64,000 bases of DNA, taken from contig NZ_JAHUWN010000012.1 in NCBI RefSeq assembly GCF_019219025.1, forward strand, positions 62,001 to 126,000. Reading direction: 5' to 3'. This stretch comes from Bacillus sp. sid0103. Its GTDB lineage: Bacteria > Bacillota > Bacilli > Bacillales_B > DSM-18226. The position numbers were made by a program, and so were the translations under genes. The notes under the pieces were generated by a model. It was not told the DNA's origin. It was given only the letters and a program-made list of their open reading frames with translations, and made no database searches. This document shows, one piece after another, positions 2,443 to 42,600 of the stretch; position 1 is the first letter of the stretch; every line of letters begins with the position of its first letter.

Positions 2443-4776
2443 TTACATTTTACTAATGGCTTTTACTACATCCTCTGCTTCTAGTAGCAGAGACATTTCA
2501 AACAGATCTTCCTCTTCTTCTATTTCCATTAACCTAGAGGCCTGTGCTTGAATCATTTCATCAATCATGTTTGTTGCAAAACGGCCATTTCCTTTAAAGG
2601 CTTCTTCATTTATTTTACTCAATAACAGATGTTTAGCTTCATTAGATAATTGATATTGATAGCATTCAGCATAGACTGCCATAATTTCAAGTAGTTCTGC
2701 GGAGGAATAATCAGGAAATAAGAAGAATTTTTTAAACCTGGAGCGAAGTCCTGGATTGCTTTCTAATAGCAAGTCCATTTCATGAGGGTATCCAGCCAGG
2801 ACGACCACTATATTCTCATTATGCTTCGTCATTTCATCGACAAGAGTATCGATTACTTCTTTTCCAAAATCACCTGAAGTCGCACTAAAAAGCGAATAGG
2901 CTTCATCAATAAATAAGACTCCTCCAAGAGCTTCTCTAATCTTTTTCTTTGTTTTTCCGGCTGTTTGACCAACATATCCAGCCACAAAATCAGCCCTGCT
3001 AGCTACAATCAGATGGCCTCTTTTTAAAATGCCACAGTCTTTCAAAAGCTCTGCATAAATCTTAGCTACGGTTGTTTTCCCTGTTCCAGGGTTACCCGTG
3101 AAAACAGCATGTAATTGAATCGGCACTGGTGACAATCCTTTTTTCATCCGGTATTGCTGCATTTTTACAAATGAGAAAAGTGACCTCATCTCCACTTTTA
3201 ATGCATCTAACCCAATTAGACGGTCTAATTTTTCATATGGGGACTCATCATTTTCTTCTTTGTCGATAAGAAAGTCTTCTTTATTCAGTAACATATATTC
3301 TAAGATGTTTTCTTCCGTGACTTCCTTATTAGAGCCCTTCTTGAAAATGGCATCGATAACGATATTGCGGACAGTTCTTGCATTACCAAATGTGTCATCT
3401 ACCCGTTCACGATCGAGACGATGATTGATTTGTATTTTAGCATCATCACTAAGAAAATAATCATTATCTGACGCAACCTGTTCAGCTATACTGATTAACT
3501 CGTCATTTGAATAATTAGGCAAATGAATGAGATTGGACTGCGGAAAGCGACTGCGTAAACCTGGATTTGCATCTAAAAAAGTACGCATTTCTTCGGGATA
3601 GCCTGCCAAGATCACCGCAAATTTTCCGCCATACTCATTTCCAGTCATTAGCGAAACTAACGTATCAATTGCCGCTTGACCATAATCATTTCCCGTTTGA
3701 CCCTCGCGCTTCAGACTGTATGCTTCATCAATAAAAAGCACACCGCCGATCGAACGTTCAACAATTTTGCGGACGTTTTCTTCTGTTTGGCCCACAAAAG
3801 AGCCGACAAGCTGGGAGCGGTCCGTTTCAATAACTTCTACTCTAGGAAGAACACCTAATTCATGATAAATTTTCGCTAACAACCGAGCAAGAGTTGTTTT
3901 CCCCGTCCCCGGATTTCCGGTTAAAATCATATTCAGGCTCAGATCGTCCTTAATTTGAAATCCTAGATCCTTCCGCTGTTTTTGATACTTAAGAAATCGG
4001 TAAAAGTCATTTACCCGTTTTTTGACAAACTCCATTCCAACCATATCATTTAGTTGATCTAGTGCATTGACTTGAGCGGTGTCAGATTGGACTTCTTCTT
4101 CATTAAATTGCCTTTGCCACGTTTCTTTGATTTCCTCTAAAATAGATAAATGCTTTTTTAAGTCATCATAATAGGTGGAGGTATGGAAAACACCTGTAAT
4201 CGATTGATCATACTCCTCCACTGCCTTTAATAGCCTACCTGTTTCGTCAATAGCTGTCGAAAACAACTCATATAGGTGATTGTATTTTTGAAAAACATCA
4301 GGATTACTCAATGTTGCGGAAAGGTCTTTTTTTGCTGCAAGATCTGTTTGAATTTCATCTGCATTATTTAAAAAGTTTTGACAAACTTCTATGTATTGTT
4401 CGGCTGTTTTCTTTTTCGCTGTTCGATTATCTGTCTCTCTCATAGAAGGAAAGGTAAGCGGTAATAGTAAGCCATTCATCTTTTTCCAATCAGATTGCAT
4501 CATATATTCTTTAGCTTCTTGATTATTTGGGAATAATGTAAGAGCTCTTTCCAACCATATGGCTGCCATTTTATCCTGATTATTTCGACCCAGTCGAGAG
4601 AGGGCGGCAACGGTTAAAAGTTTTGATAAGATGAGCGGATTGGATTCATCAGTCAATGCGGAAATTAATGAACTTTCATTTGAAATAGATCCATTTTGCT
4701 GTAATTCTTGTTCCCATTGCTTTAATTTCTCTTCATTTTTTGTTTGCTGGTTTACAAGTTGTCTCAAGATTATCAC
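2443..4776 (-). CDS. Double AAA+ ATPase, SpoVK/CbbX-like
   Basis: This is a 777-residue protein with two AAA+ modules of the CbbX/SpoVK/EccA type. The N-terminal third is helical and TPR-like. Module 1 has Walker A GNPGTGKTTLARLL and Walker B GGVLFIDEAYSL; module 2 has GNPGTGKTTVAKIY and a matching FIDEAYSL. Arginine-finger-like NPGLRSRF occurs in both. B. subtilis SpoVK has a single module (about 320 residues), so this is a larger relative. The two complete active sites suggest a hexameric remodelling ATPase, but the client is unknown. The start is a GTG at 4776 with a weak upstream site; a TTG three codons in is possible. It is only 27 bases upstream of yneP and may be cotranscribed with it. 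Confidence 0.85.
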   Translation of the reverse strand: MIILRQLVNQQTKNEEKLKQWEQELQQNGSISNESSLISALTDESNPLILSKLLTVAALSRLGRNNQDKMAAIWLERALTLFPNNQEAKEYMMQSDWKKMNGLLLPLTFPSMRETDNRTAKKKTAEQYIEVCQNFLNNADEIQTDLAAKKDLSATLSNPDVFQKYNHLYELFSTAIDETGRLLKAVEEYDQSITGVFHTSTYYDDLKKHLSILEEIKETWQRQFNEEEVQSDTAQVNALDQLNDMVGMEFVKKRVNDFYRFLKYQKQRKDLGFQIKDDLSLNMILTGNPGTGKTTLARLLAKIYHELGVLPRVEVIETDRSQLVGSFVGQTEENVRKIVERSIGGVLFIDEAYSLKREGQTGNDYGQAAIDTLVSLMTGNEYGGKFAVILAGYPEEMRTFLDANPGLRSRFPQSNLIHLPNYSNDELISIAEQVASDNDYFLSDDAKIQINHRLDRERVDDTFGNARTVRNIVIDAIFKKGSNKEVTEENILEYMLLNKEDFLIDKEENDESPYEKLDRLIGLDALKVEMRSLFSFVKMQQYRMKKGLSPVPIQLHAVFTGNPGTGKTTVAKIYAELLKDCGILKRGHLIVASRADFVAGYVGQTAGKTKKKIREALGGVLFIDEAYSLFSATSGDFGKEVIDTLVDEMTKHNENIVVVLAGYPHEMDLLLESNPGLRSRFKKFFLFPDYSSAELLEIMAVYAECYQYQLSNEAKHLLLSKINEEAFKGNGRFATNMIDEMIQAQASRLMEIEEEEDLFEMSLLLEAEDVVKAISKM

Positions 4777-8794: not shown

Positions 8795-10531
8795 TTACCC
8801 CATGAGAGATCGTTTTTGCTTAAGAAGGCTATTAAATTCTTGATCCAACTTCTGATATCTAGGGTCCTTTTGATCCATGAACGATAACTCACCTAAAATG
8901 GATGCAATCTTGTTTTCGATAACTAATAATGCTTCTTTTAAGTCATCCGCTTGGTTCTTGTTTACATTCTGATTTAAATACTCTTCAGGTTTCATTTCAA
9001 TCCTTTTAATTTGCTGGTTTTCAAATATCAGCAGGCGGTCACAAAGTTTATTTAGAAAGTAATAGTCGTGGGAAACGATAATAATCGTACCAGTAAATTC
9101 TGCTAACGTATTTTCTAGCTGCTCTCTACTTGGCAAATCAAGATGGTTTGTTGGTTCGTCCAGAACGAGTACATCATATTCCTTCATTAACATATCAACG
9201 AGCTTTACTCTCGTTCGTTCCCCCAAACTCAACGTTTCAATCGGTTTTGTTAGAAATGCCTCCTTTAAGCCTAAATTTGCAAGTAAAGTTCTTGCTTTTA
9301 GGACACTTTCTCGATCTGTGAACCCCAGTGCCTCCATTGCGTTTTTTTCCGAAGGCAAATCATCAACATCTTGACTTAAATAGGCAATTTTTATCGAGTC
9401 ACTTCTCCACAAATCACCATTTGAAAAGCTTTCTTGATCTAACATCATTTTTATTAATGTCGTTTTGCCGCAGCCATTTTCACCGAGGAGACCAATTCGT
9501 TCTCCATGATTAATGTAGAAATTGGAATGTTGGAAAAGTGTTCTATCCTCGTAGGTTTTGGATAAATTCTTGGCCTCGACAATTCGTTTGCCCCTCTTCC
9601 CTTGTGCATCAAACTGAAACCTTACTTGAACCTCTTCTAATGGTTTTTCCAACTTATTTTTTTCTAACTCATTTTGTAGACGTTTCATTTTTGACTTCAC
9701 TTGATTGTCTGTTTTTTTAGCCTTTACGCGATGATATTCCTTAATCCCATTTTGTCTTTTACTTGGACCTTTCCCCTTTTTAGTCGAATCGCGATGAGCT
9801 TTTTCGGACCAAGTCTTTAATTGAGTAATTTGTGATTCTACTTCTTTTATTTTTTGCTGCTGGACACTGTATTGGTGCCTCATATTTTCTACTTTTTGTT
9901 GTTTCTCTTTGCGATAGTCACTGTAGTTTCCATTGTAAAAGTGAATCTTGCTATTTTCTAATTCAAAAACTCGTGTAACTGTTTGATCTAAGAAATGACG
10001 ATCATGCGAAATGATTAAGACTGGGCCCTGGAACTTTTCTAATTCTGATACCAGCCACTGGATCCCTATATAATCTAAATGATTCGTGGGTTCATCGAGA
10101 ATTAAAAAGTCTGGTTTTGAAGCCCAAACCATAGCTAATGCCAATTTTAACTTTTCTCCGCCACTTAAATGACGTAAACGTTCTTTTTCCCAGTTATAAA
10201 CCTTAGTGAGGCCTAATGTGCTGGCATGTTCGAGCAAATCATTCGTCGCACTTCCAATTAAAGACTGCTGGAAATCACTCACTTGGTAATCGATGGACTG
10301 AGAAAGATAACCGATTTTTAACTCATTCGATTTTTCAATGATGCCATTATCAGGTGTTATTTTTCCGAACAGGATATTCGCCAATGTAGTTTTTCCTGTT
10401 CCGTTATAGCCGACCAGACCAATCCGTTCTCCATTCTTTATATCGAAATGGATATTATCCAATACCTTTCTTAATTGAAAACTTTTTTCTAAACCGATAA
10501 CTTTTAAGACTGTCATTTGATTTGTAAGCAT
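8795..10531 (-). CDS. ABC-F ATPase, ribosome-protection type (Vga/VmlR-like)
   Basis: A 578-residue soluble protein with two ABC domains and no membrane segment. Domain 1 has Walker A GYNGTGKTT and signature HLSGGE; domain 2 has GENGCGKTT and signature LSLGER. Both carry Walker B LDEPTNHLD. The basic inter-domain linker (about residues 220-310, many K/R) is long, as in antibiotic-resistance ABC-F proteins that displace lincosamides, pleuromutilins or macrolides. I start at the ATG at 10531: its ribosome binding site GAAGGGAG lies inside the terminator stem. The upstream frame extension is leader sequence, not protein. The attenuated leader supports drug-inducible expression, but the drug class cannot be told. 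Confidence 0.87.
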   Translation of the reverse strand: MLTNQMTVLKVIGLEKSFQLRKVLDNIHFDIKNGERIGLVGYNGTGKTTLANILFGKITPDNGIIEKSNELKIGYLSQSIDYQVSDFQQSLIGSATNDLLEHASTLGLTKVYNWEKERLRHLSGGEKLKLALAMVWASKPDFLILDEPTNHLDYIGIQWLVSELEKFQGPVLIISHDRHFLDQTVTRVFELENSKIHFYNGNYSDYRKEKQQKVENMRHQYSVQQQKIKEVESQITQLKTWSEKAHRDSTKKGKGPSKRQNGIKEYHRVKAKKTDNQVKSKMKRLQNELEKNKLEKPLEEVQVRFQFDAQGKRGKRIVEAKNLSKTYEDRTLFQHSNFYINHGERIGLLGENGCGKTTLIKMMLDQESFSNGDLWRSDSIKIAYLSQDVDDLPSEKNAMEALGFTDRESVLKARTLLANLGLKEAFLTKPIETLSLGERTRVKLVDMLMKEYDVLVLDEPTNHLDLPSREQLENTLAEFTGTIIIVSHDYYFLNKLCDRLLIFENQQIKRIEMKPEEYLNQNVNKNQADDLKEALLVIENKIASILGELSFMDQKDPRYQKLDQEFNSLLKQKRSLMG

Positions 10532-10882: not shown

Positions 10883-13588
10883 TTAAGCTTGTAATTTTTC
10901 ACGTAGAACCATTGGAAGAATTCCGCCGTGACGGTAGTAATCAATTTCAACTTCTGAGTCAAAACGAACAAGAACTTCGAATTCTTTCTTGTTACCTGAT
11001 TCATCAGTTGCGGTTACTTTTAGAAGGTCACGAGGTTTTACATTTTCGTCGACTTGAACATCAATTGTTTCTTTTCCAGTTAATCCAAGTGTTTCAGCAC
11101 TTTCGCCCTCTTTAAATTGAAGTGGAAGTACACCCATTAACACAAGGTTTGAACGGTGAATACGTTCGAAGCTTTCAGCAAGAACTGTTTTAATACCTAG
11201 AAGGTTTGTACCTTTAGCAGCCCAGTCACGTGAAGAGCCCATTCCGTAATCTTTACCAGCAAGAACAATCAATCCAGTGCCGTTTTCTTTATACTTCATG
11301 CAAGCATCATAAATAGATGTTACTTCGCCAGTTGGCCAGTAGGTAGTTACTCCACCTTCAGTACCAGGTGCGATTTGGTTACGAATACGAATATTTGCGA
11401 ATGTTCCACGCATCATTACTTCGTGGTTACCACGACGAGAACCGTAAGAGTTAAAGTCACGAATGGCAACGCCTTTTTCAAGCAAATATTTTCCTGCTGG
11501 AGTATTTTTACCAATAGCTCCTGCTGGTGAAATATGGTCAGTTGTTACAGAATCACCGAACTTACCAACAACACGAAGTCCTGTTAATGGTTCAACCGTA
11601 CCTGGCTCTGGTGATAAGCCTTCGAAGAACGGTGGGTTTGCAATATAAGTAGAATCTTCATCCCAAGTATATAATGGTTCATTGCTTGTCTTGATTTCGT
11701 TCCAACGCTCGTTGTCACCGAACACGTTCGCATATTCGCTGCGGAATAGTTCAGGAGTAACAGTGCGTTTAACTACATCATTAACTTCAGCAGTTGATGG
11801 CCAAATATCCTTGAAGAAAACATCATTTCCATCTTTATCTTTACCAATTGCCTCAGAAGCAAAGTCGATGTTTACAGTACCAGCAAGCGCGTAAGCAACA
11901 ACTAATGGTGGTGAAGCAAGGTAGTTTGCTTTTACAAGCGGATGAATACGTCCTTCAAAGTTACGGTTACCGGAAAGTACAGAGGTAACTAAAAGATCGT
12001 TTTCAGCGATTGTTTTTTCGATTTCTTCTTTTAATGGACCGGAGTTACCGATACATGTTGTACAGCCGTAACCAACTAGGTTAAAGCCGATTTGCTCTAA
12101 ATATGGAAGTAATCCTGAATCACGAAGATATCCAGTTACAACCTTAGATCCTGGTGCTAAAGAAGTTTTCACGAATTTTGGAACTTCCATTCCTAATTCG
12201 ACAGCTTTCTTCGCAACTAATCCAGCACCTACTAGAACGTAAGGGTTGGAAGTGTTTGTACAGCTTGTGATGGATGCAATCGCAACTGCTCCAGTTTTAA
12301 TCGTTGTTTCGTCACCATTGTTAAATTTCACCGTAGCGGACTTATCAAGCTCATCCGCTTGTAAGCCAAAGCCTTGGTTTCCTTGTGGTGCTGAAACAGC
12401 TTTGATGAATTCTTCTTTCATTTTTGAAAGTGGAAGTAAATCCTGTGGACGTTTAGGACCAGAAAGATTTGCTTCAATCTCAGAAAGATCGATTTCTACT
12501 ACATTTGTGTAAACTGGCTCTAAAGCTGGATCAAAGAACAAGCCGTTTGCTTTGCAATATTGTTCAACAACATTAATTTGTTCTTCTTCACGTCCAGTTA
12601 AGCGCAAATATGCTAGTGATTCATCATCAATTGGGAAGAATCCGCATGTAGCACCGTATTCAGGAGCCATGTTGGCAATCGTTGCACGGTCTGCAAGTGG
12701 AAGTACTGATACACCAGGGCCAAAGAATTCAACGAATTTTCCAACTACACCTTTACTGCGGAGTACTTGAGTTACTTTTAATGCTAAGTCGGTTGCTGTT
12801 GCTCCATTTGGAAGTTCGCCCGTTAACTTAACACCAACAACTTCAGGAACTGGGAAGTAAGAAGGCTGTCCTAACATTCCAGCTTCAGCTTCAATACCGC
12901 CAACGCCCCAGCCAAGAACACCAAGACCATTGATCATAGTTGTATGTGAGTCAGTCCCAACTAATGTATCTGGGTATGCTTCTAATTCACCATCTACTTC
13001 AGCAACGTGAACAACGTCAGCCAAGTATTCAAGGTTTACTTGGTGAACGATACCTGTTGCAGGCGGAACTGCGCGATAGTTGTTGAATGATTTTTGTGCC
13101 CAGCTTAAGAACTGGTAGCGTTCTGCGTTACGTTCAAATTCTAAATCCATGTTAACTCTTAATGAATCATTGGAACCATAAGCATCAACTTGGACAGAGT
13201 GGTCGATAACAAGGTCGACTGTTTTCTCTGGATTAATTTTGTCTGGGTCCCCGCCAAGGTCAGCCATTGCTTTTCTTAGAGAAGCAAGGTCTACTACTGC
13301 TGGAACTCCGGTGAAGTCTTGAAGGATTACACGTGAAGGTTTGAATGGAACATCGACCTCTTTAAGTTCAGCTGTTCCCCATTTAGCTAAGTTTTCAACG
13401 TGGTCCTTTGCAATTACGCGGCCATCATATTGGCGAAGTACAGATTCAAGTAATACTTTTACTGAGTAAGGCAATTTCGAAACGTTTCCGATTCCTGCCT
13501 CTTCAAGTGCACTTAAACGGTAATAGTGGTAACGTTTACCGTTAGCTTCAAAAGAAGAACGTGCGTTAAATACATCATTTTTAACCAT
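10883..13588 (-). CDS. citB: Aconitate hydratase
   Basis: A 901-residue AcnA/IRP1-type aconitase that interconverts citrate and isocitrate in the TCA cycle. In B. subtilis it also binds RNA when its iron-sulfur cluster is lost. Cluster ligands are visible in [11 protein letters not shown] and [12 protein letters not shown]. The substrate-binding block [11 protein letters not shown] and swivel-domain block [10 protein letters not shown] are intact. Length is normal. AAAGGGG lies upstream of the ATG. Its neighbourhood (sspO upstream, yneN further downstream) follows B. subtilis. A CcpC-like dyad lies about 150 bases upstream. Confidence 0.98.
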
Positions 13589-22550: not shown

Positions 22551-22775
22551 TTTCTTCACCCTTTTATATTAGAATTTTCTGAATAAACTGTACACACTAA
22601 TAGTACCTGAAAATGAATGGTTATTCAATCTTTGAGTTAGTCTTTTATTATCGGTGAATAAACCGTTTCTAGTACACGAACGATGCGTGAGAAAAAATTT
22701 AAAATGTTCGTTTTTCTGAAAAAACTTATTGATTTACTTTTTATCTGCTCGTATAATGTGAATAAATTCATATCG

Positions 22776-22850
22776 TTTCACTCATATAATCGCGGGAATA
22801 TGGCCCGCAAGTTTCTACCGGATTGCCGTTAACAATCTGACTATGAGTGG
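22776..22850 (+). promoter_or_regulatory. Guanine-type purine riboswitch
   Basis: The sequence has all conserved parts of the purine riboswitch: CACTCATATAATCGCGGG, ATATGG, GTTTCTACCGG and a closing GACTATGAGTG. The base before TATG in GACTATG is C, which corresponds to the guanine/xanthine-sensing C74 rather than adenine-sensing U74. It lies upstream of xpt-pbuX, its classical target, with an intrinsic terminator between. Confidence 0.95.
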
Positions 22851-22907
22851 GTAATGCGAATGGCGCCTCTTTTTTAGATGTGCACCTATTCCTAATCTTT
22901 TGGACAC

Positions 22908-31187: not shown

Positions 31188-31660
31188 GGAATGTCATCAT
31201 GGAAGCCGATGAAGGATAAAACTGGTTAGAATGAAGATGAAATGTCTTTCATTGAACCGATGAAGGAAAAGACTGGTTGGAGTAAAGATGAAATGTCTTT
31301 CATTGAGCTGATGAAGGACAAGACTGGTTGGAGTAAAGATGAAATGTCTTTCATTGAGCCGATGAATTACAAGACTGGTTGGAATGAAGATGAAATGTCT
31401 TTCATTGAACCGATGAAGGACAAAACTGGTTGGAATGAAGATGAAATGTCTTTCATTGAGCCGATGAAGGACAAAACTGGTTGGAATAAAGATGAAATGT
31501 CTTTCATTGAGCCGATGAAGGACAAAACTGGTTGGAGTAAAGATGAAATGTCTTTCATTGAGCCGATGAAGGACAAAACTGGTTGGAGTAAAGATGAAAT
31601 GTCTTTCATTGAGCCGATGAAGGACAAAACTGGTTGGAGTAAAGATGAAATGTCTTTCAT
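31188..31660. repeat. 51-bp tandem repeat array
   Basis: About nine units of 51 bp, starting GATGAAATGTCTTTCATTGA, follow the phnE stop. Eight are near-identical and the first is degenerate (it carries an in-frame TAG). The unit length is a multiple of three, so one plus frame (unit DEMSFIEPMKDKTGWSK) and two minus frames are open throughout. No ribosome binding site is apparent. Each unit can form a small hairpin (TTCAT/ATGAA). Differences between units are scattered and mostly non-synonymous, which gives little evidence of coding. Confidence 0.9.
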
Positions 31661-31698
31661 AAAGGGATGTGACACTTAGATCGCTCTATGATTATATT

Positions 31699-33986: not shown

Positions 33987-35060
33987 TTATTCACAACTAC
34001 TCGTATTATTCAACAAATTCAGCATATCGGCAAAGTCGAACGGAGCTTCTTTCCTAACACGTTCTGCAAACTGAGATACTAGCTTTAATGTTTCAATACT
34101 CTCTACTGGATAGTGCCCTGCAGCGCTTTCAGCAGATAACATGACAGCATTCGTTCCATCCATTACGCTCTGGAATACATCCATGACTTCCGCCCTTGTT
34201 GGTAAAGGGTTAACCACCATTGATTGCAGCATCTGTGTAGCTGTAATCACAAAGCTATCCAAACGATTACATTCTCTAATCATCGCTTTTTGCAAAAGTG
34301 GAATCCATTGGTAAGGTAGCTCCACACCCAGGTCACCTCGAGCAATCATCACTGCATCTGTCTCCTTACAGATTTCTTGGAAATTTTGGATTGCCTCGAT
34401 TGTTTCAATTTTAGCTACCAACTTAGGAGCAAATCCTTGTGCACTTTCAATAAAACTCCGTATTTCTTTGATATGCGATGCCTTGCGGACAAATGAGCAA
34501 GCAATGAAATCGACTTCTTCCCTTAATAGGAATTGAATATCCAGTTTATCTTTTTCAGTAATAGCAGGTAGGCTCGTTACAACACCTGGAAGATTTACTC
34601 CTTTACGGGAAGATATTTCTCCACCTGTCTTTACATTCGTGACCACTTTAGTTTGATCTACATCCGTAATAATCAATTCAACTGCTCCATCATTAATCAA
34701 AATTCGATTTTCCGGTTGCACATCCTTAACTAAATTTTCATAATCAACGCTTACCTGTTTCTCGTTTCCTAATACTTGATCAATATGAAGGGTAAAGGTC
34801 TGTCCCGTTTTGAGAGTAACTTTTTCACCTTCAACCTTACCCAAACGTATTTTTGGACCCTGAAGGTCACCTAACAATTTGATTTGATGTCCCGTTTCGT
34901 TGCTGAGTGATTTTATCAAACGAATAACGTTACTGTGGCTCTCATGGGTCCCATGGGAAAAATTCAATCTGGCAATCGTCATTCCATGATTAATTAGTTC
35001 AGTGAGAACTTTTTTATCATTACTTGATGGTCCAATGGTACAAACACAATCAATGGACAT
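33987..35060 (-). CDS. Short pyruvate kinase lacking the C-terminal domain
   Basis: A 357-residue pyruvate kinase with only the catalytic A/B domains. Active-site blocks are CTIGPSSNDK, ARLNFSHGTHE, GPKIRLG, FIACSFVRKA, AKIETIEAIQNF and MIARGDLGVELP. It ends after YPVESIETLKLVSQFAE, so the regulatory C domain (about 110 residues) and the Bacillus-specific extra PEP-utiliser-like domain are missing. It is probably a paralog of the main PykA, not its replacement. The stop is in frame with no sign of a truncation scar. It follows the kdp operon after a terminator. Confidence 0.88.
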   Translation of the reverse strand: MSIDCVCTIGPSSNDKKVLTELINHGMTIARLNFSHGTHESHSNVIRLIKSLSNETGHQIKLLGDLQGPKIRLGKVEGEKVTLKTGQTFTLHIDQVLGNEKQVSVDYENLVKDVQPENRILINDGAVELIITDVDQTKVVTNVKTGGEISSRKGVNLPGVVTSLPAITEKDKLDIQFLLREEVDFIACSFVRKASHIKEIRSFIESAQGFAPKLVAKIETIEAIQNFQEICKETDAVMIARGDLGVELPYQWIPLLQKAMIRECNRLDSFVITATQMLQSMVVNPLPTRAEVMDVFQSVMDGTNAVMLSAESAAGHYPVESIETLKLVSQFAERVRKEAPFDFADMLNLLNNTSSCE

Positions 35061-35163: not shown

Positions 35164-35191
35164 AAAAAAAGAGCTGCCAAGATGGCAGCTC
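35164..35191 (-). terminator. Terminator of the kdp operon
   Basis: GAGCTGCCA pairs perfectly with TGGCAGCTC, and the minus strand follows with TTTTTTT. Confidence 0.9.
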
Positions 35192-35223
35192 CTGTTAACA
35201 TTGTATGAAAAGAAATCTCAATA

Positions 35224-37566
35224 TTATTGTTTCTGTTGGTCAGCTACCACCAATACATCCATATGACGTACCTCTCTTAACAATCGTTGAGTAACAGATC
35301 CTTTTACTATCTCTTCCCATCGGGAACGGGCAGATTGACCAATAATGACTTGTGTTGTATTCTTTTCGTTCATCTGATTCACCAACTTCCTAAAGACTTG
35401 ACGTCTTTCTGTTGTCTCATACAATTCAAATACTCCGCCAAGCCGATTCGTTAGTTGTTGAATTTTTGTTAATGTTTGCTCCTCATCTTCCGTCAAGGGA
35501 TGATGATCTTTCACATGAGCCACATACCAGAGGGCTTTTAAACGATAAGCAATACGAAAACCACGACGAATTAGCCTTTCACTGTCAGGTCTCAAATTCG
35601 TACAAACAAAAATAACTTCTTGCTGTCTCCAAGGTCCCCTTAATGTTCGTTTTCTCTCCCATGATTCAAGTCGCTCATCTACATCATCTGCAACCTCTCG
35701 TAGGGCTAACTCCCGAAGGGCTATTAAATTACCGGTCTTAAAGAAGTTATTCAGTGCTTGCTCAACTTTTTCGTGTGCATATATACGTCCCTCCTTCATC
35801 CGATCGCGCAATGCCTTTGGCGAGATATCAATCAATTCAATTTCATCTGCTCTTCGTAAAATATGATCAGGCACTGTTTCACGTACTCTCACACCGGTTA
35901 TTTGCTCTACGCTGTCATTTAAGCTTTCTAAATGTTGAATATTCATTGTAGAAATGACAGAGATGCCCGAGTCTAAAATCTCTTTTACATCATCATATCG
36001 TTTGTAATTCTTGCAACCAGGCACATTTGTATGTGCTAATTCATCGACTAACACTACTTCAGGATTACGCTTAATAATGGCTTCTGTATCCATATCTTCT
36101 AATGTCGTTCCTTTATAGGAAATGTTTCTTCGAGGAATGATTTCCAATCCGCCGATTTGTTCAAATGTCTCCTCTCGTCCATAAGTTTCTAATAAACCAA
36201 TGACGATATCGATTCCCTTTTTCTTAAGTTCATTCCCTTCTCGCAACATCGTGTAGGTTTTTCCGACTCCAGGTGCTGCACCTATATAGACTTTTAACGT
36301 ACCATTGCGAATTTTATTCATTTCGTTTTCAAGTTCTTGAAGTGTGAGACGCCGATAGGGGTTTATTACTTCATCTTTCTTACTTTGTTTGGTTGGGAGG
36401 ACACGTTCTCCATCTTTTTCGGCGCGATCGGCAACAATAAAAACATCAATATTTTTCGTTTTGCTTAAGATTTTATTGATAATTGAACCATAGGCAATTT
36501 CCTCCCAGCGCGTTCGTTTTGTTTGACCTAGTACAATCCGAGTTACATTATGTTCCGTTGCATATTGAATAATTTGCTTTGCAGCAGTATCTTTCTCTAG
36601 CGGTAACTCTTCAAATTCACCCCCAACTTTTTCCACCAATTTTATAATTGACCGTTTGAAGGTCAGTTCATTTTTAGATACTTTTTTATTAGGTGATTGA
36701 AAACAAACTACCAGTAAATCTCCGCCTAATCTTTTAGCAATTTGCTGACCTCTTCGTACGAGAATCGACCCATTCCAATGGTATTGCACAGTTACTAAAA
36801 TTTTTTCTGACGCTCCTGACGGACCAATCATCCCATGCATTTCTCTATATTCATCTAGTGCGTCATTAACTTCCCCTGCTAAAAAGCGAAGAGCAAGTTC
36901 ACGGAGAACAGCAAGGTTGCTCCGATGGAAGAGGTGATATCTCCCACGTTTTTCTTCATGAATTTGCTCGATATCACCTTCTTGAATCCTGGTAAGGATC
37001 GCTTCTGGCGTCACATCCAATAGCTTTACTTCATCGGCTAGTGCTAGGGTATCTTCAGGGACACTACAATGGACTTTAACCTTACCACCCGTTAATTTGT
37101 CAGCAATCCCCCTTACACCTTCTAACTCATATATGTTAAGGGTAGTAATTACACTTATTTTCTTATTTAACAGATAGTTAATATCATCGAGTCGAGTAGG
37201 ACGTGGAGCATCGGGTCGATTACGATGTGCTAAGGCATCGACTAAAACCACTTCAGGATTACGGATAATAACGGCATCTACATCAAGATCGTACTTCACT
37301 TCCCCATTGTTCATCCAATCTATCGAAGGAATACTTTCTAAATCATCAATCTGTTCCATGGTCTTCGGACGGTTTAAGGTACTGATTATGCCAATGACAA
37401 CGTCAATCCCTCGTTTTTTTAAATGATTTCCTTCTTGTAGCATGTGATAAGTTTTACCGGAGCCGGTTACCGCACCTAGAATAATTTTCAAATGACCTTT
37501 GCGTATTTTTTGAATCGATAAGAGGATTTCCTCTGGTGTTTTTCTTCGGAATTCCTCTTCACTCAT
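35224..37566 (-). CDS. Tandemly duplicated KdpD sensor region without histidine kinase
   Basis: A 780-residue protein made of two KdpD N-terminal units. Each unit has a KdpD ATP-binding domain followed by a USP-like domain. Unit 2 (about 402-780) is canonical: Walker A GAAPGVGKTYTM, VLVDELAHTNVPG, and GQSARSRWEEI in the USP part. Unit 1 (about 8-390) has GAVTGSGKTYHM but VLVDALAHRNRPDAP, with Ala in place of the conserved acidic residue, so it may bind but not hydrolyse ATP. No membrane helices, HAMP, GAF or kinase domain follow. It is the last gene of the kdp operon, after kdpC. No kdpE is present. The c-di-AMP motif known in S. aureus KdpD (FTAxY) was not seen. Confidence 0.9.
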   Translation of the reverse strand: MSEEEFRRKTPEEILLSIQKIRKGHLKIILGAVTGSGKTYHMLQEGNHLKKRGIDVVIGIISTLNRPKTMEQIDDLESIPSIDWMNNGEVKYDLDVDAVIIRNPEVVLVDALAHRNRPDAPRPTRLDDINYLLNKKISVITTLNIYELEGVRGIADKLTGGKVKVHCSVPEDTLALADEVKLLDVTPEAILTRIQEGDIEQIHEEKRGRYHLFHRSNLAVLRELALRFLAGEVNDALDEYREMHGMIGPSGASEKILVTVQYHWNGSILVRRGQQIAKRLGGDLLVVCFQSPNKKVSKNELTFKRSIIKLVEKVGGEFEELPLEKDTAAKQIIQYATEHNVTRIVLGQTKRTRWEEIAYGSIINKILSKTKNIDVFIVADRAEKDGERVLPTKQSKKDEVINPYRRLTLQELENEMNKIRNGTLKVYIGAAPGVGKTYTMLREGNELKKKGIDIVIGLLETYGREETFEQIGGLEIIPRRNISYKGTTLEDMDTEAIIKRNPEVVLVDELAHTNVPGCKNYKRYDDVKEILDSGISVISTMNIQHLESLNDSVEQITGVRVRETVPDHILRRADEIELIDISPKALRDRMKEGRIYAHEKVEQALNNFFKTGNLIALRELALREVADDVDERLESWERKRTLRGPWRQQEVIFVCTNLRPDSERLIRRGFRIAYRLKALWYVAHVKDHHPLTEDEEQTLTKIQQLTNRLGGVFELYETTERRQVFRKLVNQMNEKNTTQVIIGQSARSRWEEIVKGSVTQRLLREVRHMDVLVVADQQKQ

Positions 37567-37622: not shown

Positions 37623-38183
37623 TTATTTTATGTTTTGTAAAGCCATGTTTAGCTCCAATACATTGACCCGTGGCTCACCAAAAATGCCTAATGAGCGTCC
37701 CTTTGTATGTTTATTTATTAAAGCTAATAAACGTACTTGCGTAATACCATTGGCTTGAGCAATTCTTGGCACTTGGGCATTTGCTGCTTCCGGAGACAAA
37801 TCCGGGTCAAAACCGGAACCTGAAGTAGTAACTAAATCGGCAGGAATCTTATTACTAACACTATTATTCTCACTTTTTAGATGATCAACATTATCCTTTA
37901 CTGTTTTAATGTATTCTTTCGATGAAACAGCCGCATTCGTCGCAGCAGAAGCTGTTGGATCATATTTTGCTGCGGACGCTCTTGGATGGAACCACTGAGA
38001 ACCATGAAACCCTTGAGCTAAAAGCTCTGAACCTTGAACTTTACCATTCTGAATAACAAGACTTCCTTCTGCTTGTTTATGAAATAAAACCTGGGCAACT
38101 CCTGTTGTGGCTAACGGATAGGCTAAACCACATAAAATCATTAATAACACAGAAGCTCGAATCGCGACCATAAGTGACCTCAT
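37623..38183 (-). CDS. kdpC: K+-transporting ATPase subunit C
   Basis: A 186-residue protein with one N-terminal membrane segment (LLMILCGLAYPLATTGVAQ) and an extracytoplasmic domain. Family blocks are GSELLAQGFHGSQWFHPRAS, SGFDPDLSPEAA and QVRLLALINKHT. KdpC stabilises the KdpFABC complex and helps ATP binding by KdpB. It lies 26 bases after kdpB. Confidence 0.96.
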   Translation of the reverse strand: MRSLMVAIRASVLLMILCGLAYPLATTGVAQVLFHKQAEGSLVIQNGKVQGSELLAQGFHGSQWFHPRASAAKYDPTASAATNAAVSSKEYIKTVKDNVDHLKSENNSVSNKIPADLVTTSGSGFDPDLSPEAANAQVPRIAQANGITQVRLLALINKHTKGRSLGIFGEPRVNVLELNMALQNIK

Positions 38184-38209: not shown

Positions 38210-40249
38210 TTAAACTAGATGTAAAGCCGCTACAATCATGTCTATTATTTTTATACCAATGAATGGAACCACCACTCCACCGAAGCCATAGATGAGGAGG
38301 TTACGACTAAGAAGTTTATTCGCATCCATCGCCTTATATTTTGCTCCTTTCATCGCAATCGGGATGAGAAGAGGAATGATGATGGCGTTAAAAATTAAGG
38401 CAGAAAGAATTGCCGATTTTGGTGATGCCAATCCCATCACATTCAGAGATTGTAATTGCGGTATTACTGTAATAAAGAGTGCCGGAATAATCGCAAAGTA
38501 TTTCGCGATATCATTGGAAATCGAGAAAGTCGTTAATGCACCTCTTGTTATTAATAATTGCTTTCCAATGGCGATAACAGATAAAAGTTTGGTTGGATCA
38601 GAATCTAAATCAATCATGTTGGCTGCTTCTTTTGCTGCCATTGTACCGGAATTCATCGCTAATCCAACATCTGCCTGCGCGAGCGCAGGAGCATCATTAG
38701 TACCGTCACCAGTCATTGCTACAAGTTTACCCTCTGCTTGTTCTCCCTTGATGGCTGCGATCTTGTCTTCTGGCTTCGCTTCTGCAATAAATTCGTCTAC
38801 TCCAGCTTCTTTCGCAATGGTAGCTGCTGTCAATGGATTATCACCAGTACACATAATTGTTTTGATCCCCATTTCACGAAGTTCAGCAAATCGTTCCTTC
38901 AGTCCCGGCTTCACTGTATCTTTCAAATAGATGACTCCAAATACATTATTATTAATAGCGACTGCTAGAGGAGTCCCTCCTGCCTTTGCTATTTTTGTAG
39001 CTATCTCATCCAAGTCGGCAGGAATCTTACCTCCTTTTGAAATAACATATTTTTTTATAGCGTCTACTGCACCTTTTCTTATTTCTGTTCCATCTATTAA
39101 TGTTAGACCTGACATACGCGTTTCTGCTGTAAATTCAATAATCTCTGTACCATCATATTCTGTATGATCCCACTTAACTCCCAGCTTATGGGCTAACTCC
39201 ACAACAGACCGTCCTTCTGGAGTTTCATCTTTTACCGATGCCTTTAAAGCGGATAATGTTACTTCCTGTTCTGACACATTAGATATCGGTAAAAACTCAC
39301 TTGCCATTCTGTTCCCAAATGTAATGGTACCCGTTTTATCAAGGATCATGGTATCAATGTCACCAGCTGCTTCTACAGCTTTTCCTGACATCGCCAAAAC
39401 ATTAAATTGGGTTACTCGGTTCATCCCAGCAATCCCAATCGCTGAAAGCAATCCTCCAATTGTGGTTGGGATTAAACATACGAGAAGTGCAATTAAAGTA
39501 GCCACGTCAAGGTTTATATTTAAATAATCAGCAATAGGTACTAACGTCATAATGACAATTAAGAAAATGAGTGTTAATACAGCTAATAGCGTTGTTAAGG
39601 CAATTTCATTCGGTGTTTTTTGACGAGACGCGCCTTCGACCAATGAAATCATCCGATCAAGGAACGATTCACCTGGATCTGATAAGATTTTAACGATGAT
39701 ATAATCCGATACAACTCTTGTTCCTCCTGTAACAGATGAGAAATCTCCGCCCGCTTCTTTAATGACTGGTGCAGATTCCCCTGTAATCGCTGACTCATCA
39801 ATTGATGCCAGCCCTTCAATAATTTCCCCATCCGAAGGAATAATTTCACCTGTATATACTCGAACAATATCTCCTTTTCTTAATGAAGTAGAGGGAAGCT
39901 CTTTGTATGAACCATCTTTTTGTCTAACCTTTGCCATCGTTTCCGATTTTGTTTTACGTAATGTATCAGCTTGTGCCTTACCTCTACCCTCGGCAAGCGC
40001 TTCAGCAAAGTTTGCAAAAAGGACAGTAAACAGGAGGATAAGGAAAACAGCAATGTTATAACCACGTCCTACTGTATTAACCCCGAAAATGTCTGGTTGA
40101 ATTGATAAAATCAATGTGATCAATGTCCCGACTTCTACAACAAACATAACAGGATTCTTAATCATAACCAGCGGATTTAACTTTTTAAACGAATCTATTA
40201 TTGCTTGAAAGATAATATCTTTTGATAGTGCTTTATTTTGAATTGCCAT
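38210..40249 (-). CDS. kdpB: K+-transporting ATPase subunit B
   Basis: A 679-residue P-type ATPase subunit with seven or so membrane helices. The phosphorylated Asp lies in [12 protein letters not shown], the hinge in [15 protein letters not shown] and the actuator-domain loop in [15 protein letters not shown]. Length and motifs are complete. It drives K+ uptake through KdpA in the high-affinity KdpFABC complex. It is preceded by kdpA with a 31-base gap. Confidence 0.98.
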
Positions 40250-40280: not shown

Positions 40281-41960
40281 CTAGTGAAACATCCCCAGAT
40301 GTTCAGCAATTGGACCTAAAGCAAGAGTTGGGAAGAACGTTAATGCACCAATTACTGCAATAATTACAACTAAGATCCCAGTGAATAGTGGTGTATCTGT
40401 ACGAAAAGTTCCAGATGTTGCTGCTACCACTTTCTTTGTTGCAAAAGATCCGGCTATCGCTAACATGGCTATGATCGAAATATATCGTCCCAACAACATG
40501 ACTATTCCAAGAGCGATGTTATAGAAGTTGGTATTAGCTGTAAGACCACCGAAGGCTGAACCATTATTCGCTGCCGCCGATGTAACAGCATACAAGATCT
40601 CTGATAAACCATGATTACCAGGATTTAAAATAGACGAAACTGCGCCCGGTGTGAACATGGCAATAGCTGTCGGAACAAGAATAATAACCGGATGAATGAG
40701 TAAGGCAATTGAAGCCAACTTCACTTCTTTTGATTCAATTTTTTTTCCTAAAAATTCTGGTGTTCGACCTACCATCAAGCCACAAATAAATACTGTTAAT
40801 ATCACATATAACAATCCGTTTAATAAACCGACACCTTTACCGCCAAATACGTTATTTAGCATCATTTCGGCTAAAGGAACAAGACCACCTATTGGAGTTA
40901 AAGAATCATGCATGTTATTAACAGACCCAGTAGTAGCTGCTGTAGTTACTGCGGTAAATAAAGCTGATTCAGAGATACCGAACCGAACCTCTTTACCCTC
41001 CATATTACCGTGAATACCTAGTGAATTTAGTGCAGGCGTACCGTTATACTCAGCAATAAACACTACTGACAGAAACACCAAAAGCATTATCCCCATTGCA
41101 GCAAATACAGACCAGCCTTGACGTTTGTTTTTAATCATTATCCCAAAGGCATAGACCAATGCTGTTGGCAAAAGCAGCATACTGAGAATATGAATTAGGT
41201 TAGTTAATGGTGTTGGATTTTCAAATGGATGTGCTGCATTGGTTCCAAAATATCCTCCACCATTTGTTCCAAGATGCTTAATTGATTCTAACGATGCAAC
41301 AGGTCCTCGTGTGATCGTTTGTTTAACTCCTTCTAGTGTTGTAGCATCCGCTGCACCATGAAACGTTTGCGGTATTCCTTGAAATACCAAGAATAATGCA
41401 ACAATAAATGATAATGGTAATAAAATTCGTGTTATCGATCGAACCAAATCAACATAAAAGTTTCCAAGATTATTCTGCCGAGCAATTAAACCGCGTATGA
41501 AGGCAATCGCTACCGCAAATCCAGTAGCTGCTGATGTAAACAACGGGAATGTAATACCAATCATCTGAGATAAGTATGAAAGTGAATTTTCACCGCTATA
41601 AGCCTGCCAGTTTGTATTGGTAATAAATGAAATTGCTGTATTGAATGCTAATGCAGGGGGCATATTATCTATTCCATCTGGATTCCATGGCAGATATTTT
41701 TGCAACCTAAAAATGGCATATATTAGAATCAACATAACAAAGTTACTAATTAATACGGCAAACAGATACTTCTTCCAACCCATCGACTCTTTTTCCAGAA
41801 CTCCAATAAAACGGTAGATAAATCGTTCTACTGGTCCATATACACGATCCAATCCTGTAGTTCCATAATCGAAAACTTTCACTATGTAGGCACCAACTGG
41901 CTTTATTAATATGCCAGCAATAAGTAAGGTAACTACTACCTGAATTATCCCCATGATCAT
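40281..41960 (-). CDS. kdpA: K+-transporting ATPase subunit A
   Basis: A 559-residue channel-like subunit with ten or more membrane helices. The four selectivity-filter repeats are visible as TNTNWQAYSGE, TNGGGYFGTNAAHP, TTGSVNNMHD and SAAANNGSAFGGL. It forms the K+ path of KdpFABC. GGGAGG precedes the ATG. kdpF is directly upstream and kdpB downstream. Confidence 0.98.
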   Translation of the reverse strand: MIMGIIQVVVTLLIAGILIKPVGAYIVKVFDYGTTGLDRVYGPVERFIYRFIGVLEKESMGWKKYLFAVLISNFVMLILIYAIFRLQKYLPWNPDGIDNMPPALAFNTAISFITNTNWQAYSGENSLSYLSQMIGITFPLFTSAATGFAVAIAFIRGLIARQNNLGNFYVDLVRSITRILLPLSFIVALFLVFQGIPQTFHGAADATTLEGVKQTITRGPVASLESIKHLGTNGGGYFGTNAAHPFENPTPLTNLIHILSMLLLPTALVYAFGIMIKNKRQGWSVFAAMGIMLLVFLSVVFIAEYNGTPALNSLGIHGNMEGKEVRFGISESALFTAVTTAATTGSVNNMHDSLTPIGGLVPLAEMMLNNVFGGKGVGLLNGLLYVILTVFICGLMVGRTPEFLGKKIESKEVKLASIALLIHPVIILVPTAIAMFTPGAVSSILNPGNHGLSEILYAVTSAAANNGSAFGGLTANTNFYNIALGIVMLLGRYISIIAMLAIAGSFATKKVVAATSGTFRTDTPLFTGILVVIIAVIGALTFFPTLALGPIAEHLGMFH

Positions 41961-42001: not shown

Positions 42002-42079
42002 CTAAAACTTTTCAGGTTTAATTAAGACGTATGACAGATAAATAATCATAACTACTCCAATAATTCCTGGTACGAGCAT
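42002..42079 (-). CDS. kdpF: K+-transporting ATPase subunit F (small peptide)
   Basis: A 25-residue single-helix peptide reading MLVPGIIGVVMIIYLSYVLI then KPEKF. This is the usual size and sequence type of KdpF, which stabilises the complex in the membrane. AAAGGAGG lies upstream at good spacing. It is 41 bases before kdpA. Confidence 0.92.
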   Translation of the reverse strand: MLVPGIIGVVMIIYLSYVLIKPEKF

Positions 42080-42404: not shown

Positions 42405-42450
42405 AAACAAAAAAGCCCCCCTGAATTAGGCGGTCTTTAGACCTCCCTCG
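42405..42450 (-). terminator. Terminator of the kdp riboswitch
   Basis: On the minus strand a hairpin around GGTCTAAAGACC and CCGCCT/AGGGGGG is followed by GCTTTTTTG. One mismatch interrupts the last stem. Confidence 0.6.
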
Positions 42451-42578
42451 CTTTAGCCGACGAAGTTAGCTGACGGGTAGGATGGCGAAAGAGTTTCTCA
42501 TCCCTTCTGGTTCCCCAGAATTAACCCCAAAATATTGGTTCCTCCGTTCCTGAGTTCCCTCAGGATTAAGCCGGTTTA
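42442..42578 (-). promoter_or_regulatory. c-di-AMP (ydaO/yuaA) riboswitch
   Basis: The minus strand carries the ydaO-type core: CTTAATCCTGAGGGAA, GGGGTTAATTCTGGGGAACC, and the highly conserved CCCGTCAGCTAACTTCGTCG, ending AAGCGAGGGAGG. This class binds c-di-AMP and turns transcription off through a downstream terminator, which is present. It lies in the leader of kdpFABC, a known target in other bacilli. Confidence 0.93.
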
Positions 42579-42600
42579 TTAATTTGTAGATTACGATGTT

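Follow-up and report, generated by a model that had tools for sequence, protein, structure and literature searches.

A two-unit KdpD protein with a presumed pseudokinase first half at the end of a Bacillus kdp operon

The window analysed here, a 64,000-nucleotide stretch of the Bacillus sp. sid0103 genome, carries a leftward-read operon in which a cyclic di-AMP (c-di-AMP) riboswitch is followed by kdpF, kdpA, kdpB, kdpC and, in last position, the gene of a tandem KdpD. This protein consists of two successive units, each made of a KdpD domain and a universal stress protein (USP) domain. Loss of the catalytic Glu in the first unit, and not in the second, is a family-wide pattern, real and old. 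Since unit 1 has lost this residue yet kept its nucleotide-binding parts, it is probably a built-in sensor or regulator of a working unit 2. We favour, with moderate confidence, a reading in which unit 2 is a serine kinase acting on KdpB and unit 1 a pseudokinase or sensor controlling unit 2.

E. coli KdpD has been described as an atypical serine kinase which directly phosphorylates KdpB on S162 and inhibits the pump at high K+ (Silberberg and colleagues, 2024, PMC11018627). According to that report the activity requires Walker A, W39/R190, D109 and E110, is abolished by D109A or E110A alone, and is ensured by residues 1-230. The same source describes a D. geothermalis short KdpD, composed of KdpD-USP only, that is stimulated by c-di-AMP and not by K+; its account leaves open how short KdpD senses and how the signal passes within the chain. 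In B. thuringiensis, a c-di-AMP riboswitch is reported together with a 365-amino-acid (aa) KdpD and no KdpE (PMC6488665), while the B. anthracis short KdpD is reported to bind c-di-AMP and to strengthen c-di-AMP inhibition of its pump in E. coli (PMC11302148). Short KdpD, the KdpD serine kinase and the c-di-AMP riboswitch are already known, and the last two papers bear out the remark of an earlier prediction, made from the window alone, that single truncated KdpDs exist. For a two-unit KdpD with a dead first half, no description was found in open-access full text. This agrees with the same prediction, which held the tandem form to be undescribed; 'duplicat', 'fused' and 'two KdpD domains' have 0 occurrences in the main text of PMC11018627.

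Unequal catalytic sites in the two units

The tandem gene occupies positions 35224..37566 of the minus strand, a strand assignment that the original prediction did not give. Its open reading frame (ORF) runs from an ATG start over 780 aa without internal stop, as seen in the ORF listing and the translation; the plus strand of the same interval has many stops. The domain order is KdpD-USP-KdpD-USP. PF02702 (KdpD, 540 bits in total) and PF00582 (Usp) each match two stretches, and so does NCBIfam NF038185 (KdpD_non_kinase, 'KdpD-like non-kinase potassium sensor', model length 373), with 835.7 bits in total for the whole protein at a cut-off of 550 bits; lone units of relatives fall under this cut-off (roughly 385-505 bits for unit 2, 280-365 for unit 1). 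The eight Pfam families listed include neither a histidine kinase nor a GAF or DUF4118 domain, and the 64-kb window gave no match at E 1e-3 when searched by tblastn with KdpE and the kinase half of KdpD from E. coli. The doubled KdpD-USP layout devoid of transmembrane (TM), GAF and kinase parts, with no kdpE found in the window, had been predicted and is upheld by these searches. The protein has the make-up of a short KdpD (PF02702 then USP, no histidine kinase part), except that it comprises two units and 780 aa instead of one unit. The units share 38% identity across 380 residues, and unit 1 is 31% identical to the N-terminal KdpD-USP part of E. coli KdpD.

All features of the protein are given on the minus strand, residue numbers in the family comparison being those of E. 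coli K-12 KdpD, whose motifs match in our alignment the positions of the 2024 paper. The KdpD domain of unit 1 (about residues 22-232, 36871..37503), the presumed pseudokinase, retains Walker A, the Walker B Asp and the Arg190 equivalent. Its Walker A reads GAVTGSGKT in the translation (residues 31-39, 37450..37476) and its Walker B VLVDALAH (residues 107-114, 37225..37248), with Ala (residue 111, codon GCC) aligned to E110 of E. coli KdpD. The USP domain of unit 1 (about residues 250-380, 36427..36819) was delimited by Pfam and by structure comparison of the model, and its beta1-alpha1 loop, QYHWNGSI (residues 261-268, 36763..36786), lies where S. aureus KdpD has its c-di-AMP contact loop. 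After a linker modelled with low confidence (residues 384-402, 36361..36417) comes the KdpD domain of unit 2 (about residues 421-634, 35665..36306). Sequence comparison finds in it the retained serine-kinase signature, with Walker A GAAPGVGKT (36256-36282) and Walker B VLVDELAH (36031-36054), the Glu being residue 509 (codon GAA). The USP domain of unit 2 (about residues 650-777, 35236..35619), delimited like the first, closes the protein. The predicted difference between VLVDALAH and VLVDELAH is thus confirmed at codon level.

Relatives were assembled in two ways. The tandem set (n=199) joins 80 loci, retrieved with six DNA patterns of which three lie within unit 1 and one is QYHWNGSI, to 119 of 120 listed proteins, overlap between both sources being left in; P0053 (738 aa) was omitted from the counts as its split into units failed. 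Single short KdpDs (n=59) were picked from 120 listed rows by id and length. A separate family search gave 60 genes, 57 from the Paenibacillus order (a count without the centre genome G014 and without G261, in which a contig end interrupts the tandem), two from the order of the nearest genome and one from the nearest genus; 49 of the 60 differ from every pattern-retrieved locus in the compared unit-1 stretch. The closest listed proteins are two at 93% followed by that of Neobacillus drentensis at 92%, and the closest locus is from Bacillus sp. MM2020_1 (92%), which makes a Neobacillus-like member of the Bacillaceae the probable source of the window.

The two-unit layout is found again in 80/80 loci and 119/120 listed proteins. 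Position E110 is Glu in 199/199 second units and 59/59 single short KdpDs versus 16/199 first units; the 183 first units that lost it carry Gly (78), Ala (45), Ser (26), Asp (12), Val (11), Asn (8), Leu (2) or His (1), and Ile was seen in one further set. This recurrence of both the layout and the Glu loss in unit 1 shows that neither chance nor sequencing error is involved. On the other hand, G30, G34, G36, K37, D109 and R190 never vary in either unit of the 199 proteins, and T38 is replaced by Ser in one first unit. The family-search set behaves likewise, Glu110 being found in 1/49 first units and 49/49 second units, with K37, T38, D109 and R190 retained in 49/49 for both. The serine-kinase signature of unit 2 (GAAPGVGKT, VLVDELAH and the R190 equivalent) is present in the window protein and in 199/199 second units of the family; unit 1 of the window protein, with its Ala, lacks the Walker B Glu of a serine kinase. 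At the position of Trp39, every one of the 199 second units and 59 singles has Tyr or Phe, and P. syringae KdpD (2r8r) has Tyr, hence an aromatic residue but not Trp. The original prediction that one copy binds and the other is catalytic is therefore well supported as a family-wide sequence pattern, though not as a measured activity.

First units also display residues of their own. The NxQHxES motif of unit 2 and singles is lost in them, Q145 being Tyr in 96% and H146 being Glu in 198/199; Glu occupies the latter position in 0/199 second units and 0/59 singles. K123 is Thr in 94% of first units, and Y85, E164, D168, Y197 and F209, kept in unit 2 and singles, are lost there. The fixed residues proper to first units include Y145, E146 and Q272. 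Unit 1 might, from this, still be an enzyme, its catalytic acid having moved to E146, with another substrate or an ATPase or timer function. The near-constant presence of this Glu in first units, its absence elsewhere and its closeness to the invariant N143 and Walker A are in favour of such a moved acid. However, 15/199 first units have Glu at both positions, so that E146 is no simple substitute for E110, and we hold this explanation to be unlikely. The 16 first units with Glu110 share T or S123, Y or H145, E or D146 and Q272, and consequently look like first units that tolerate a Glu.

Distribution, evolution and locus context

In 20 genomes with a pattern-retrieved locus (completeness unstated), the tandem is intact in 20/20, four having two copies; the same genomes hold no single short KdpD and one additional full-length KdpD. 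Diadenylate cyclases are present in 20/20. A KdpD-type DUF4118 kinase scored above cut-off in five of these genomes and was not found in the other 15; G001, the genome of the nearest locus, gave none. The family search over 150 genomes of the nearest genome's order gave three tandems, one being the centre, and 17 singles. The 99 genomes from the order of the Paenibacillus foliorum genome, which we take to be Paenibacillales, gave 59 tandems, one being the centre and one cut by a contig end, with 12 full-length KdpDs and no single short form among the rows listed. The tandem is the commonest KdpD form found in these 99 genomes. In 40 genomes of the nearest genus, we found six intact tandems (one being the centre), one broken gene, one set of remnants, one single and one full-length KdpD. 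Database names of tandem proteins, 'histidine kinase', 'sensor histidine kinase KdpD' or 'universal stress protein', say little or mislead.

The history of the units was approached with a tree built on 27 first and 27 second units, along with 30 singles and two full-length KdpDs (quick search, SH-aLRT support only). Each unit forms one clade (100*), and within both clades Paenibacillus/Cohnella separate from Bacillaceae plus Brevibacillus. The stem of unit 1 is long (1.31 versus 0.35 changes per column for unit 2), and unit 1 joins the singles at a support of 84 only. The later tree length is 23.6 for unit 1 versus 30.4 for unit 2. The simplest reading of these sequences would be a single origin of the tandem, whether by internal duplication or by fusion of two KdpDs, before the lineages split or with spread by transfer, and for unit 1 a rapid early change after which it settled. 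The ratio of nonsynonymous to synonymous substitution rates (dN/dS) of unit 1 is 0.026-0.170 in the 10 pairs, out of 12, whose unit-1 dS is above 0.2; that of unit 2 is 0.029-0.120 in nine of those ten pairs, the tenth giving no value. Since several of the dS values are above 1, these ratios are rough. Both units are under purifying selection.

These data bear on the possibility that the tandem is a mere duplication with a redundant or slowly decaying unit 1, only unit 2 being of importance, as in single short KdpDs. Single short forms suffice in other Bacillales (17/150 genomes) and reportedly in D. geothermalis (PMC11018627), the E110 position varies freely in unit 1 (G, A, S, D, V, N, L, H, I), unit 1 has the less conserved KdpD domain, and 2/40 nearest-genus genomes hold a broken tandem gene or remnants of one. 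But decay would not readily leave Walker A and R190 invariant, save one T38S, together with newly fixed residues (Y145, E146, Q272); dN/dS is low in diverged pairs, the unit 1 tree is not longer than that of unit 2, and the Paenibacillus-order genomes, 59 of 99 with a tandem, offer no single short form among the rows listed. We judge a redundant unit 1 improbable.

Linkage to kdp was counted over the 80 pattern-retrieved loci: kdpA, kdpB and kdpC are matched in 77, 78 and 79 of them, some as fragments at contig ends. L025 and L046 have no kdpB nearby and one elsewhere in the genome. SA[IV]TGES, which holds the target Ser, occurs in KdpB of 77 of the 78 loci with a kdpB match, the remaining one being cut at a contig end. 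A riboswitch, scored if within 2.5 kb upstream of kdpA, precedes 68 of the 77 kdpA. Contig ends truncate two of the nine others, L005 and L034, while in L003, L051, L055, L064, L065, L076 and L078 none was found within 2.5 kb although no contig end lies there. KdpE, counted at 40% identity and 150 bits, is present in 23/80 loci (26/80 have any match at E 1e-5), accompanied by a separate kinase without Walker A motif in 22 and by a full-length KdpD in one. Whichever of the two modes of transcriptional control applies, the pump thus comes with a tandem, in line with a post-translational role, keeping in mind that the loci were chosen for the tandem.

Could the tandem be a kinase-dead remnant of a KdpDE two-component sensor? 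Its homology to the N-terminal half of KdpD and the KdpE of 23/80 loci could suggest so. This proposal was rejected, as no KdpD-type kinase was found in 15/20 genomes, as the locus kinase is mostly a separate protein of 497-696 aa (22/23) beside which the tandem is still intact, and as the clades are old with low dN/dS; we give it hardly any credit. The refuting conditions of the original prediction, a separate kdpD-kdpE pair or frameshifts in relatives, did not overturn it: no DUF4118 kinase was found in 15/20 relatives' genomes, where the tandem frames are open, but two nearest-genus genomes do have a broken gene or remnants.

Some further features of these loci deserve mention. A riboswitch upstream of kdpA, KdpE and a separate KdpD-type kinase occur together in 15/80 loci according to our own model, and 6/6 of such loci tested with Rfam (L036, L043, L050, L058, L059, L073) were positive. 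The riboswitch and KdpDE, said to be mutually exclusive in PMC6488665, therefore co-occur in 15/80 loci, which contradicts the exclusion as stated there. At least two riboswitches stand in series ahead of kdpA in 31 loci, and L007 has further c-di-AMP riboswitches within a few kb of its kdp operon (3500-3644 and 4378-4516, minus; 12954-13087, plus). A conserved ORF of about 130 aa is present in 43/80 loci, mostly of Paenibacillus/Cohnella but also L049 and L054; they include L025-L031, L044-L050 and L053 (e.g. L046:9566-9973). By its coordinates it sits, in the loci inspected, between the c-di-AMP riboswitch and the kdp genes. It gave sub-threshold Pfam matches only, one of them to TrkA_N, in one of two tested, and could be an extra Kdp operon protein. 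In L046, two riboswitches (8872-9342) lie directly upstream of this small ORF and the tandem kdpD. As the locus gave no match to kdpABC and a kdpB is present elsewhere in the genome, the regulator may have riboswitches of its own there.

Ligand loops and a possible mechanism

The two USP domains differ as do the two KdpD domains. Over the 49 family-search genes, the beta1-alpha1 loop of the first USP is QYHWNGSI or QYHWNGSL in 43 (entropy 0.19 bits), whereas that of the second takes 32 different sequences (1.64 bits); QYHWNGSI is also found in 106/119 first units of listed proteins. The 80/80 invariance of this loop in the loci was set aside, since QYHWNGSI was among the retrieval patterns. 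In these 49 genes the mean pairwise identity of the KdpD domain is 77.1% in unit 2 versus 67.3% in unit 1, and that of the USP domain 60.4% in unit 1 versus 49.0% in unit 2, the KdpD domain of unit 2 being the most conserved of the four. Such crossed conservation, KdpD higher in unit 2 and USP in unit 1, is expected from a split between sensing and catalysis; as a sequence pattern it is a support for this split, not a proof. In the Paenibacillus/Cohnella loci, too, USP1 identity exceeds that of USP2 (67.1 versus 53.6%).

In S. aureus KdpD, the USP loop residues S244, S246, Y248 and N249 are reported to contact c-di-AMP (PMC8214093, PMC4686210), and SXS-X20-FTAXY is given by the same papers as the signature of c-di-AMP-binding KdpD of this type. 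Positions S244/N249 are Q/G in unit 1 and N/S in unit 2, and an S. aureus-type site was rejected for either USP; c-di-AMP as the ligand of the protein, one of the options in the original prediction, is plausible but thus uncertain. The operon's riboswitch suggests that the ligand may nevertheless be c-di-AMP, the loop being different from the known c-di-AMP loop, and binding through another loop is possible as far as sequences tell. The S. aureus contact residues are also lacking in KdpD of D. radiodurans, which is related to the Deinococcus protein that was tested. Direct sensing of K+, put forward in the original prediction, found no support and was rejected, as the known K+-sensing TM/GAF parts are missing.

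According to the model that we propose, the tandem protein would be a stand-alone, membrane-free regulator of KdpFABC. High internal K+ would raise c-di-AMP; the riboswitch, once bound to it, would turn off new kdp transcription, while the tandem protein would switch off the pumps already in the membrane. Unit 2 would bind ATP and phosphorylate KdpB on the TGES serine, and unit 1 would bind ATP without phosphate transfer. Folding back on unit 2 via a USP-USP pseudo-dimer, unit 1 would gate it by means of its ATP site and the conserved ligand loop of its USP, as in pseudokinase-kinase tandems. We infer the kinase activity of unit 2 by analogy with E. coli and D. geothermalis KdpD, the ATP binding and inactivity of unit 1 from residues kept and lost, and the USP-USP pairing from structure models; which way control runs and what the ligand is are conjectural too. 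The model agrees with the earlier suggestion of a Kdp control without phosphorelay, which fits the serine-kinase role described for the KdpD domain in 2024 (PMC11018627); the link to serine phosphorylation was absent from that suggestion. A more specific version, to which we give a little less than an even chance, is that unit 1 is a kinase-dead, ATP-binding nucleotide sensor which, via its new QYHWNGS USP loop, allosterically licenses unit 2 to shut off KdpFABC, its ligand being possibly other than c-di-AMP, or the ATP/c-di-AMP ratio.

Alternatively, the tandem protein could act on transcription and not on the pump, for instance by sequestering c-di-AMP and so tuning the riboswitch. Overexpression of the short KdpD in a c-di-AMP-accumulating B. 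anthracis strain is reported to lower c-di-AMP and to raise kdp and ktr transcripts (PMC11302148), as such sequestration would. Yet deletion of the B. thuringiensis short kdpD reportedly left kdp transcription unchanged (PMC6488665), kdpA and the tandem occur in the seven uncut loci cited above although no riboswitch was found there within 2.5 kb, and the most conserved domain is the KdpD domain of unit 2. We regard a transcriptional role as quite improbable.

A kinase unit controlled by a pseudokinase unit has several observations to contend with. Single units do the same job elsewhere, and the tandem gene is broken in one nearest-genus genome and reduced to remnants in another. The E146 of unit 1 could restore some chemistry. 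The residues of the S. aureus c-di-AMP contact were missing from both USPs in our alignment. The advantage of USP1 over USP2 in identity is slight outside Paenibacillus/Cohnella (70.9 versus 68.2% in Bacillaceae and others, 65.7 versus 64.2% in Brevibacillus loci) and marginal in listed proteins (73.3 versus 72.1%). In the two least diverged pairs, dN/dS is 0.217 and 0.464 for unit 1 versus 0.078 and 0.149 for unit 2. Moreover, as three of the six retrieval patterns lie in unit 1, trees, identities and dN/dS drawn from the loci may favour that unit, and the models of the tandem protein (predicted template modelling scores 0.45 and 0.56) determine the arrangement of units weakly. All these points weigh against the proposed division of labour.

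Short KdpDs are devoid of any known K+-sensing part, and the tandem would be a natural separation of sensing and catalytic copies in one soluble chain. Unit 1 brings two natural 'mutations', the catalytic Glu gone and the USP ligand loop rewritten. If the proposal is true, this would be a bacterial case, built on a P-loop fold, in which a kinase is governed by an inactive copy of itself.

The operon of the window and known systems

The operon leader, on the minus strand like the genes that follow, is a c-di-AMP riboswitch of the ydaO type (42440..42582; Rfam RF00379, 77.3 bits, cut-off 38). A riboswitch terminator noted by eye near 42405-42437 was rejected, its fold being no better than shuffles (z 0.23) and missing from the terminator scan. 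Next come kdpF (25 aa, 42002..42079) and kdpA (40281..41960), both recognised by eye, the latter as an ORF and by tblastn in relatives; kdpB (38210..40249, ORF named by eye, and alignment), the expected substrate, with its target Ser in TGES at 39773-39784; and kdpC (37623..38183), an ORF recognised by eye and matched by tblastn in 79/80 loci. Right after the tandem gene, a terminator-like hairpin (35169..35193, minus; 11 pairs and a T run) is a consensus match only. Beyond it, a short pyruvate-kinase-like gene (357 aa, 33987-35060, read by eye) adjoins the tandem gene and has a counterpart near kdp in just 2/80 loci. Elsewhere, the window contains a purine riboswitch (22762-22863, 91.5 bits) and a 51-bp repeat in nine near-perfect copies (31204-31660, Tandem Repeats Finder score 788), inside or beside ORF 31242-31679, which encodes the 17-aa repeat MSFIEPMKDKTGWSKDE.

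Tandem KdpD shares with the short KdpDs of D. geothermalis, B. thuringiensis and B. anthracis the two domains, the kdp operon and the lack of TM, GAF and histidine kinase parts, and with the B. thuringiensis system also the c-di-AMP riboswitch and the lack of KdpE. Short KdpDs, however, have one unit with the Glu kept (59/59), whereas the tandem has two diverged units, the first without catalytic Glu. E. coli KdpD possesses the same N-terminal KdpD-USP unit with its Walker A/B serine-kinase site, but also TM, GAF and DHp-CA parts, and 'tandem' refers there to a serine plus a histidine kinase. Split KdpD systems, described as a KdpD-USP chain with a separate TM-GAF-kinase chain (PMC11018627), resemble 22/80 tandem loci, in which, unlike in split systems, the serine-kinase chain is doubled.

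The predicted USP1-USP2 pair, taken from models whose unit arrangement is weakly determined, superposes on the tandem universal stress proteins UspE and A. fulgidus 3loq, although in tandem KdpD a KdpD P-loop domain precedes each USP. In JAK-type pseudokinase-kinase tandems, a nucleotide-binding dead copy stands beside an active one. The likeness would be one of working only, the fold being unrelated: tandem KdpD is bacterial, with the P-loop fold of an atypical serine kinase, and its expected substrate is a pump.

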